From contig NZ_CP012836.1 of NCBI RefSeq assembly GCF_001593605.1, forward strand, positions 3,746,001-3,810,000: DNA of 64,000 nucleotides, written 5' to 3'. The notes under the pieces are model-generated. The model searched no databases. It saw only the letters and a program-made list of their open reading frames with translations, and was not told where the DNA came from. The stretch is from Algoriphagus sanaruensis (GTDB lineage: Bacteria; Bacteroidota; Bacteroidia; Cytophagales; Cyclobacteriaceae). This document shows, piece after piece, positions 28,018-28,971 of the stretch. Each line of letters begins with the position of its first letter. Position 1 is the first letter of the stretch. Position numbers and translations under genes: made by a program.

Positions 28018-28022
28018 GATGT

Positions 28023-28119
28023 GGAAGTTGATCCCGAATCCTTTCGGGAGAACCCCCGAACCTCCCGATTTCCCGATAATTATCGGGACGGGATGCGCTA
28101 AACCAGCTGAGCAAACTTC
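28023..28119 (-). pseudogene. tRNA-Val-like relic with hairpin replacements, unit 1
   Basis: Minus-strand sequence keeps the 5' acceptor GAAGTTT, the D-arm GCTCAGCTGG and the 3' acceptor AACTTCC of tRNA-Val, plus GGGGGTTC. The anticodon arm is replaced by the perfect palindrome TCCCGATAATTATCGGGA (28071-28088) and the T-arm by TCCCGAATCCTTTCGGGA (28032-28049, read on the plus strand). It has no UAC anticodon loop and is about 97 nt instead of 75. Its 5' end coincides with the GIY-YIG stop codon. Confidence 0.75.
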
Positions 28120-28366
28120 AATTCGATATCAATTCTTCAATCTTTTTTCGGGACTCCCATGATTTCACAACTCTTTCCCGTTGATAGGCAGAAGTTTTAT
28201 TGATGTGCTCTTCATAATAAACCACTTCCCAATCTGCTAATCCACCTGTAAAGCCTTTATGATTAGAATTATGTTTTCGGAGGCGTTCGGTCAATCCTTC
28301 GCATGTATGACCAATGTAGAATCTGTCTTTCGACCTAGAAAAAAGTATGTGGAAATAACACGACAA
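28118..28366 (-). CDS. GIY-YIG endonuclease domain protein, intact copy with TTG start
   Basis: 82 residues: (L/M)SCYFHILFSRSKDRFYIGHT, then [34 protein letters not shown] and [19 protein letters not shown]. This is the small single-domain GIY-YIG family (UvrC-type nuclease), with YHILF/YIG strands, the Arg of ERLRKHN and a catalytic Glu in YQRERVV. The start codon aligned with the sister copy is TTG rather than ATG. The stop TGA overlaps the first bases of the tRNA-like relic. A longer ATG frame would translate the upstream relic and is not credible. Confidence 0.75.
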   Translation of the reverse strand: MSCYFHILFSRSKDRFYIGHTCEGLTERLRKHNSNHKGFTGGLADWEVVYYEEHINKTSAYQRERVVKSWESRKKIEELISN

Positions 28367-28380
28367 AAGTAAAAATAAAT

Positions 28381-28404
28381 AAGCCCCAGATTTTTCTGAG
28401 GCTT
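28381..28404 (-). terminator. Intrinsic terminator, unit 2 end
   Basis: Stem AAGCCCCAGA/TCTGAGGCTT (one mismatch), TTTT loop, T-rich tail on the minus strand; lies between the unit-2 relic and the intact GIY-YIG gene. Confidence 0.75.
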
Positions 28405-28409
28405 GATGT

Positions 28410-28506
28410 GGAAGTTGATCCCGAATCCTTTCGGGAGAACCCCCGAACCTCCCGATTTCCCGATAATTATCGGGACGGGATGCGCTAAACCAGCTGAGCA
28501 AACTTC
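28410..28506 (-). pseudogene. tRNA-Val-like relic with hairpin replacements, unit 2
   Basis: Identical to the unit-1 relic by eye, including both palindromes (28419-28436 and 28458-28475). Identity of this part while the nuclease gene drifts suggests recent duplication or selection on the structure. Confidence 0.75.
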
Positions 28507-28753
28507 AATTCGATATCAATTCTTCAATCTTTTTTCGGGATTTCCATGATTTCACAACTCTTTCCCGTTGATAGGCAGAAGTTTTATTGATGTGCTTTTC
28601 ATAATAAACCACTTCCCAATCTGCTAATCCACCTGTAAAGCCTTTATGATTAGAATTATGTTTTCGGAGGCGTTCGGTCAATCATTCGCAGGTATGACAA
28701 ATGTAGAATCTGTCTTTCGACCTAGAAAAAAGTATGTAGAAATAACAGGACAT
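28505..28753 (-). pseudogene. GIY-YIG endonuclease pseudogene, unit 2
   Basis: Same length as the intact copy and starts with ATG (MSCYFYILFSRSKDRFYICHT). It is broken by a TGA at 28682-28684, where the intact copy has GGA (Gly after TCE). In addition the catalytic-region Gly of YIG is Cys (YICHT). Reading is open again to the shared stop at 28505. Confidence 0.85.
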
Positions 28754-28767
28754 AAGTAAAAATAAAA

Positions 28768-28791
28768 AAGCCCCAGATTTTTCTGAGGCTT
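28768..28791 (-). terminator. Intrinsic terminator after tRNA-Val
   Basis: Stem AAGCCCCAGA/TCTGAGGCTT with T-run on the minus strand, four bases after the 3' end of the tRNA. It should end the tRNA transcript before the GIY-YIG pseudogene. Confidence 0.75.
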
Positions 28792-28795
28792 GATG

Positions 28796-28870
28796 TGGAA
28801 GTTGAGGGATTCGAACCCCCGACCCTCTGCTTGTAAGGCAGATGCTCTGAACCAGCTGAGCTAAACTTCC
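28796..28870 (-). tRNA. tRNA-Val (anticodon UAC)
   Basis: Cloverleaf on the minus strand: acceptor GGAAGTT/AACTTCC, D-arm GCTCAGCTGGTTCAGAGC, anticodon stem TCTGC/GCAGA around CTTACAA (anticodon TAC), and T-arm with GTTCGAATC. Discriminator A; CCA is not encoded. 75 nt. Confidence 0.97.
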
Positions 28871-28896
28871 TGAAGGACTATTTGGTAAAATAAATG

Positions 28897-28971
28897 TGGA
28901 AGTTGAGGGATTCGAACCCCCGACCCTCTGCTTGTAAGGCAGATGCTCTGAACCAGCTGAGCTAAACTTCC
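28897..28971 (-). tRNA. tRNA-Val (anticodon UAC), second copy
   Basis: Sequence identical to the copy at 28796-28870, 26 bases upstream of it on the same strand, so both are probably processed from one transcript. Promoter is likely in 28972-29095, which contains no gene. Confidence 0.97.

Follow-up and report, generated by a model that had tools for sequence, protein, structure and literature searches.

The array that follows two tRNA-Val genes in Algoriphagus sanaruensis belongs to a family of cassettes of ~300 to 450 bases found across the Bacteroidota, each made up of one tiny nuclease gene and an altered copy of one tRNA gene. Comparative sequence analysis leads us to think that the cassette is probably a minimal homing-like mobile element, combining a free-standing single-domain GIY-YIG nuclease specific to one tRNA gene, an altered copy of that tRNA, and a terminator. 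The stretch of 64,000 nucleotides that was analyzed, referred to here as the window, is part of a single-contig 3.88-Mb chromosome.

Anatomy of the array in the window

Read along the minus strand, the array consists of two tRNA-Val(TAC) genes, a terminator, gene A, an altered tRNA, a terminator, gene B, an altered tRNA, and a final terminator (Table 1). The original prediction described two tRNA-Val genes followed on the same strand by 387-bp direct repeats, and the start-to-start distances of 387 and 387 bore this out. It also placed terminators at 27994, 28381, and 28768; terminator-like hairpins do lie at these positions, and those at 28381 and 28768, each 24 nt long, have a folding energy of -14.1 kcal/mol, a value that 0 of 200 shuffled sequences equaled. 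A 300-nt block is 98% identical from unit to unit, and a 47-nt block of terminator and tRNA end occurs three times at 94 to 100% identity. Since both units carry an identical altered copy, we infer two steps, the element coming first and a recent tandem duplication of the element together with its altered copy following. The motif TCCCG(6-8)CGGGA occurs five times in the window, four of them in the two altered copies, versus 0.1 expected from 20 mononucleotide shuffles, so that chance does not explain the hairpins.

TABLE 1 Features of the tRNA-Val array, listed in the direction of the minus strand with positions in the window
Feature	Position	Strand	Basis
tRNA-Val(TAC), first copy	28896..28971	-	ARAGORN; Rfam tRNA, E = 1.3e-15
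tRNA-Val(TAC), second copy, host tRNA anchoring the cassette	28795..28870	-	ARAGORN; 78 nt identical to first copy
Terminator-like hairpin T1, after tRNA-Val	28768..28791	-	Repeat comparison; fold
GIY-YIG gene copy A, degenerate (internal TGA; YIG to YIC)	28505..28753	-	
Altered tRNA-Val copy A, retaining the D arm and 3' acceptor strand, with palindromic hairpins in place of the anticodon and T arms	28410..28506	-	Alignment, fold, palindromes
Terminator, second copy	28381..28404	-	Repeat comparison; fold
GIY-YIG gene copy B: frame open from a TTG start; GIY tyrosine changed to His	28118..28366	-	
Altered tRNA-Val copy B, identical to copy A in sequence and fold along these 97 nt	28023..28119	-	Alignment, fold
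Terminator, third copy; native spacer towards rarA follows	27994..28017	-	Repeats; empty-site comparison

Searched against Rfam at E ≤ 0.1, positions 27000 to 30000 of the window gave only the two tRNAs (with overlapping same-clan matches), and an intron or other known RNA was rejected on this ground. The GIY-YIG frame is the only gene in the inserted unit, in which we found no integrase or recombinase gene; a classical island, which the original prediction had also set aside, was rejected because the unit has neither integrase nor cargo.

The nuclease and its relatives

The GIY-YIG assignment made in the original prediction was correct: the window protein matches the GIY-YIG domain PF01541 (E = 6.5e-12), and Pfam recognized no second domain in the frame. 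In a family alignment of 27 sequences, R, H, E, and K are invariant and Y, Y, and G are near-invariant, these being presumably the GIY-YIG catalytic residues, and the two window copies are the exceptions. Gene A contains a stop codon and gene B, which has TTG where gene A has ATG, has lost the near-invariant first tyrosine of the GIY motif, which we take to be an important residue in this family; the window array therefore looks dead, both of its GIY-YIG copies looking inactivated from their sequences.

The closest named relatives of the window protein come from Algoriphagus aquaeductus and other Algoriphagus species, and 44 database relatives are annotated solely as “GIY-YIG nuclease family protein” or “putative endonuclease.” In profile comparison, UPF0213 (1ywl and 1zg2) and SLX1 came out as the closest solved proteins (E = 1.6e-12 and 1.2e-6), with no homing enzyme among them. 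One relative (L003) has below-cutoff matches to a group I intron endonuclease model (E = 2.9e-6) and to phage homing endonuclease families and gives weak partial matches in PADLOC. The window protein itself matched nothing in PHROGs or PADLOC at E ≤ 0.01, and a known defense system or phage family was rejected on that basis. A scan of viral contigs, which reaches close relatives only, returned five pattern matches, none related to the window protein, and a phage origin of the gene was likewise rejected at that reach.

Linkage to tRNA genes across the phylum

A search of 58 genomes and extra stretches gave 120 distinct GIY-YIG matches in 92 loci. A phylum search of 198 genomes, with a match in 128 of them, added 89 loci; one duplicate was dropped, and the set stood at 182 arrays. 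In 129 of the 182, a tRNA gene is found no more than 260 bp upstream on the same strand, at a gap of 40 to 70 bp in 84 of the 129, although the sampling is tilted toward tRNA-linked members, which supplied most of the profile, and the loci taken were mostly top-scoring ones. Adjacency expected by place alone is ~0.13%, by arithmetic from the 38 tRNAs of the source genome. That genome has five profile matches, four of which follow tRNAs at three sites (Val twice, Ala, and Met) and the weakest of which (E = 3.3e-11) is at a locus with no tRNA. Tandem arrays, as predicted, are seen elsewhere too: at least two gene copies are present in 54 of the 182 arrays, with a maximum of five (L215, 365 to 366 bp apart), and 60 of 70 spacings fall between 300 and 450 bp.

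The other arrays have a tRNA just downstream (19), none in reach (28), or lie near contig starts (6); in at least two of the downstream cases (L006 and L008), what ARAGORN called tRNA-Cys seems to be an altered Val copy. By eye, altered tRNA pieces are visible in three arrays without a tRNA (L091, L108, and L109). When 20 of the 21 loci lacking an upstream tRNA in the 58-genome set (L006 was left out) were searched with Rfam at gathering scores, only two tRNAs appeared, both downstream of the gene. A mirror layout, with the GIY-YIG gene followed by an intact tRNA (Ser, Arg, or Leu), was seen at L071, L053, L183, L184, L200, L203, L207, and L220, and the two of these that were inspected (L071 and L053) have a partial tRNA upstream. 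Other GIY-YIG genes lie away from tRNAs and, by eye, between dispersed repeats or palindromes (L080, L082, L089, L095, L099, and L106); the source genome has a tRNA-free gene in a similar setting (L407, G000:C1:3136662-3136886), which hints that this nuclease family has a second lifestyle. Inverted repeats, again judged by eye, enclose the genes at L092, L079, and L098, and at L079 and L098 the gene apparently lies within another open frame.

The altered tRNA copy carries a conserved hairpin

In the window, the altered copy aligns to tRNA-Val at its D arm and 3' end, whereas the anticodon arm has become nested CCCG..CGGG hairpins and the T arm has become TCCCGAAAGGATTCGGGA. Its place is past the GIY-YIG stop codon and ahead of the next terminator, and its fold is stable (z = -2.27). 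Eight arrays that we aligned (Val, two Ala, Asp, Leu, Met, and two Lys) share this design, with the tRNA 3' sequence kept, the terminator usually kept, and one arm replaced or interrupted by a palindrome, the last copy being worn in some. The position of the palindrome, judged by eye among the loci listed, is typical of the isoacceptor: the anticodon arm in Val, Ala, and Lys, a site after CATA in one Met type, and the T arm in many Asp and Gly loci.

The Val clade allowed this to be counted. A CCCG..CGGGA hairpin lies within 230 nt past the gene in 49 of 80 loci and is preceded by GCAT in the tRNA register in 42 of the 49; a few of the 49 sit in the terminator, outside the tRNA copy. The two inner pairs that come next, lying outside the search pattern, can base-pair in 40 of 40 and in 36 of 39 distinct hairpins and do so through several kinds of pair; 2,000 shuffles, which ignore relatedness, reached at most 36 and 31, and the third inner pair showed no excess over them. 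TCCCG..CGGGA also occurs elsewhere in these loci (42 matches, palindromes being counted on both strands). The last 12 bases of the tRNA are kept (at least 11 of 12) in 40 of 63 loci, whereas the 5' acceptor strand is kept (at least 6 of 7) in 2 of 38, so that the altered copy is unlikely to be a working tRNA. In a comparison meant to tell the native terminator from the copied one, T1 and the downstream copy are alike (at least 28 of 35) in 16 of 63 loci.

On these alignments, the replaced arm is conserved across the phylum, and plain decay of the altered tRNA was rejected because its hairpin is both conserved and covarying. The order of terminator, GIY-YIG frame, and tRNA-like relic given in the original prediction thus stands, with both genes of the window looking dead, but the view of the relic as debris does not, the sequence being a conserved and apparently re-engineered tRNA copy.

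Related palindromes are dispersed in the source genome, where CCCGAT..ATCGGG occurs at 15 sites, compared with 3 for a reversed control; the four sites inspected comprise a tRNA-Lys scar, a tRNA-Phe terminator, and two places away from tRNAs. Within a tRNA-Lys/Pro/Arg/Lys cluster of the same genome (L055 at ~1500, G000:C1:93096), an altered tRNA-Lys with no GIY-YIG gene has TCCCGATTTTTATCGGGA as its anticodon arm and is, from its sequence, apparently the scar of a lost cassette. The terminator loops of L118 and L123 contain short palindromes of the TCCCGA..TCGGGA type, imperfect in L123, a locus with no GIY-YIG gene at all. At L118 and L119, the two intact tRNA-Val genes are separated by extra altered tRNA-Val copies, which likewise have no GIY-YIG gene.

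Nuclease subfamilies follow the tRNA isoacceptor

Taking one gene per array, 142 of which had a tRNA label, we found that the nearest GIY-YIG gene in another genome sits beside exactly the same isoacceptor in 109 of 142 cases (300 shuffles gave a mean of 10.4 and a maximum of 22). When the nearest relative was restricted to other families (G248, which has no family label, being counted as its own), the figure was 51 of 142 (shuffles, mean of 10.5 and maximum of 22), and this is the fairer test since the shuffles ignore relatedness. Judged by this sequence comparison, each GIY-YIG subfamily is tied to one tRNA isoacceptor, and cassettes have so far been seen with 25 isoacceptor labels.

A scan of named genomes gave the same picture for the window protein. 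It found 101 stretches encoding a relative, of which the best 80 (46 to 92% identity over the best segment) were kept; among these 80, the gene follows tRNA-Val in 58 (TAC in 57 and AAC in 1), tRNA-Arg(TCT) in 5, and tRNA-Lys in 1, and lies just upstream of tRNA-Val in 1. The rest are beside other or misread tRNAs (4), have no tRNA within 260 bp (5), or lie at contig ends (6). According to the record titles, the relatives span Cyclobacteriaceae, Chitinophagaceae, Flavobacteriales, Sphingobacteriales, and Bacteroidales; a few are titled as other phyla, which we take to be contaminated metagenome bins.

Occupied, scarred, and empty sites

Across Algoriphagus, the orthologous tRNA-Val, -Ala, and -Met sites contain anywhere from 0 to 3 copies. 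Of 52 matches to the rarA site, 30 loci were taken, and tRNA-Val was seen in 9 of the 30; five of the nine have GIY-YIG genes (two copies in G000, the source genome, and in G078; one in G059, G080, and G023), and four have none. In one of these four (G016), the terminator runs directly into a spacer resembling that past the last terminator of the source genome, and on this comparison it is a clean empty site; G023 and the remaining three loci without the gene carry the tRNA pair in inverted orientation with respect to rarA. At the recR/tRNA-Ala site (best 30 of 58 matches), a GIY-YIG gene is present in 14 of 30, one as a fragment, and absent in 16, two of which are cut by contig ends. The tRNA-Met site (best 30 of 53 matches) has the gene in 11 of 30, one as fragments, lacks it in 16, and shows no tRNA in 3.

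Not all of the sites without a gene are clean. By a mechanical test, an altered copy persists at 8 of 32 GIY-less sites, namely, 5 of 16 Ala sites, recognized by a tRNA-end repeat (at least 11 of 14) or a TCCCG..CGGGA hairpin, and 3 of 16 Met sites, recognized by a TCCGC..GCGGA hairpin. Inspection by eye found further altered copies and gene fragments (L346 and L389), and some sites look clean.

The check proposed with the original prediction asked for the unit at tRNA-Val or other tRNA genes, in varying copy number and with clean empty sites in sister strains; across sister species, it turned out positively. The contrary case that it named, a fixed neighbor of tRNA-Val with a tandem unique to one strain, does not hold, given that copy number varies, empty sites exist, and arrays recur throughout the phylum. 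Its suggestion of a homing-like or parasitic unit maintained at tRNA-Val gains from recurrence there and at many other tRNAs and from a few transfers; what has changed is the picture of the element, whose subfamilies appear to be tied to isoacceptors.

Transfer and selection

The GIY-YIG genes of G000 and G080 differ at 7 of 225 bases (dS of 0.045), whereas rarA, which ends ~0.3 kb away, has a dS of 0.80 and 87.6% identity. The stretch that begins at the tRNA and finishes with the altered copy is nearly identical, save for palindrome insertions, and by eye identity drops in the outer spacer. G025 and G073 are 95.5% identical over 574 bases, compared with 85.7% in the flank; G073 is bounded on the left by a contig end. 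Sequence identity of this kind indicates that in a few pairs the cassette is transferred between species beyond its flanks. Among same-isoacceptor pairs, GIY-YIG identity exceeds rarA identity in only 8 of 290; GIY-YIG evolves faster than rarA, so that a lower GIY-YIG identity neither excludes transfer nor supports it.

Median dN/dS values for pairs with dS between 0 and 1.5 were 0.18 for Ala (22 of 105 pairs), 0.095 for Leu (4 of 10), and 0.27 for Met (5 of 105, range of 0.12 to 0.85), and by this measure the genes are under purifying selection. Values of 0.50 to 0.64 in the closest pairs suggest relaxed constraint in recent copies. By eye, copy 1 of L119 (G078) is a mosaic, with a 5' end like copy 2 and a 3' end like the G000/G080 type, suggesting gene conversion within arrays.

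A probable homing-like cycle and its alternatives

In the cycle that we consider probable, the nuclease would cut or nick the cognate tRNA gene of an element-free chromosome, and repair from an element-bearing chromosome would copy in the tRNA 3' part, the terminator, the GIY-YIG gene, and the altered tRNA. The upstream tRNA would be rebuilt in the process, what is left of the host gene's 3' part forming the end of the altered copy. Without the arm presumed to be the recognition or cut site, that copy would act as a recombination arm. Later, the repeats could expand in tandem and the nuclease decay, leaving GIY-less scars and empty sites open to reinvasion. We infer the DNA cleavage, the cut site, the tRNA gene as target, the repair-driven copying, the order of states, and the protection of the altered copy. 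We favor this cycle because the gene lies beside its presumed target, the subfamilies follow the identity of that target, sites of four kinds (occupied, decayed, scarred, and empty) exist, and the tRNA and altered copy, but not the outer flank, have gone along with units that passed from species to species.

Its weak point is that the altered copy lacks one arm, yet an intact tRNA remains upstream in the element-bearing array and should still be cuttable. Self-cuts would perhaps be repaired from the sister chromosome, feeding tandem growth, or the enzyme might need a DNA structure; with SLX1 among the nearest solved proteins and palindromes in terminator loops, a structure-based target is a real alternative. 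Also counting against a homing-like reading, as far as sequence can, are the small number of pairs above rarA identity (8 of 290), the apparently inactive window copies, the nearest solved relatives (UPF0213 and SLX1), the single Pfam domain, and the tRNA-biased sampling.

Recombination might suffice with no part for the nuclease: the repeats of tRNA 3' end and terminator would permit duplication, deletion, and interstrain exchange, with the nuclease a passenger or in some other role. The exchanged segment of G000 and G080 does, by eye, start and stop in repeats, recombination is enough for tandem duplication, and 282 of 290 pairs show no sign of recent transfer. We nevertheless hold this explanation to be unlikely, as it leaves the isoacceptor tracking, the purifying selection, and the invariable presence of this nuclease unexplained.

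Quite unlikely, in our estimate, is an element driven by its palindromes, in which the GIY-YIG protein would act on hairpin DNA generally and would stand to the dispersed palindromes, its non-autonomous derivatives, as RAYT transposases stand to REP sequences. Palindromes do replace arms of the altered tRNA and enter terminator loops, the 15 genomic CCCGAT..ATCGGG sites outnumber the 3 of the reversed control, several tRNA-free GIY-YIG genes lie by eye between palindromic or inverted repeats, and the closest solved relatives include SLX1-like structure-specific nucleases. Tracking of tRNA identity, however, implies sequence specificity, and a link between palindrome movement and the nuclease is hypothetical.

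We regard as improbable a system working at the RNA level, in which the protein would be a tRNA-specific ribonuclease and the altered tRNA-like RNA, with a hairpin in place of the cut arm, an uncleavable decoy or antidote. This would fit the isoacceptor specificity and the conservation, covarying stems, and stable fold (z = -2.27) of the altered copy, which, lying between the gene's stop codon and the next terminator, would share a transcript with the gene. GIY-YIG domains are known as DNA nucleases, however, a system of this kind has no need of a position beside the cognate tRNA gene, the 5' acceptor strand matches at 5 of 7 positions or fewer in 36 of 38 scored loci, and altered copies persist without the nuclease.

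Ordinary decay after a strain-specific duplication of a tRNA and its neighbor gene, with copies that are now pseudogenes, would account for the damage to both window copies but is hardly credible, being already contradicted by the same architecture throughout the phylum with conserved hairpins and open genes.

Beyond the homing-like cycle, we raise tentatively the possibility that these are two-part elements phylum-wide, in which a minimal nuclease cooperates with a non-functional tRNA mimic, the replaced hairpin is functional and coevolving, and many isoacceptors each have a dedicated parasite. If so, the hairpin of the mimic would be a target-immune homing arm, a cruciform substrate, or an RNA decoy, and GIY-less mimics and dispersed palindromes would be non-autonomous offspring.

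Should the homing-like cycle be right, many Bacteroidota genes annotated as “GIY-YIG nuclease family protein” and lying beside tRNAs would be among the smallest self-spreading elements known. Essential tRNA genes would be parasitized with isoacceptor specificity, and tRNA loci would be shaped by tandem growth and scars. The family would offer a ready set of small nucleases with differing DNA targets and a testable case of a homing enzyme that persists at an essential gene without destroying it.

Comparison with known systems

The presumed catalytic residues are intact in the family, the gene tracks the adjacent tRNA, alleles are both occupied and empty, and spread beyond the flanks is seen in a few pairs. 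We therefore place the cassette, putatively and from its sequence features, as a variant of the free-standing homing-endonuclease kind. UPF0213 (1ywl and 1zg2) and SLX1 have, by profile, the same minimal catalytic domain as the cassette nuclease; SLX1 proteins are structure-specific nucleases, and to our knowledge neither tRNA linkage nor mobility is part of either family. Integrative islands and prophages that target tRNAs use tRNA 3' ends and leave a partial tRNA duplicate. The cassette shares both features with them but has no integrase or cargo. REP/RAYT systems likewise associate a small nuclease gene with palindromes, but RAYTs are Y1 HUH transposases, an enzyme of another fold, and the cassette is anchored at tRNAs.

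In the open papers that our literature search covered, chromosomal isoacceptor-specific GIY-YIG/tRNA cassettes did not appear, and a paper on SegB was the only relevant match. According to that paper, SegB is a free-standing GIY-YIG homing endonuclease of T-even phages that is found alongside tRNA genes of numerous isotypes and is required for a tRNA segment to amplify in tandem (PMC13096335). Phage SegB is the nearest described counterpart of the cassette, the two having in common a GIY-YIG gene beside tRNA genes, tandem amplification, and many tRNA isotypes. SegB differs in being phage-borne, and the passages on it that we consulted report no favored isotype and mention no altered tRNA copy (PMC13096335). 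The Bacteroidota cassette, in contrast, is chromosomal, encodes one domain of ~80 amino acids, falls into isoacceptor-specific subfamilies, and is built mostly of 300- to 450-bp units.
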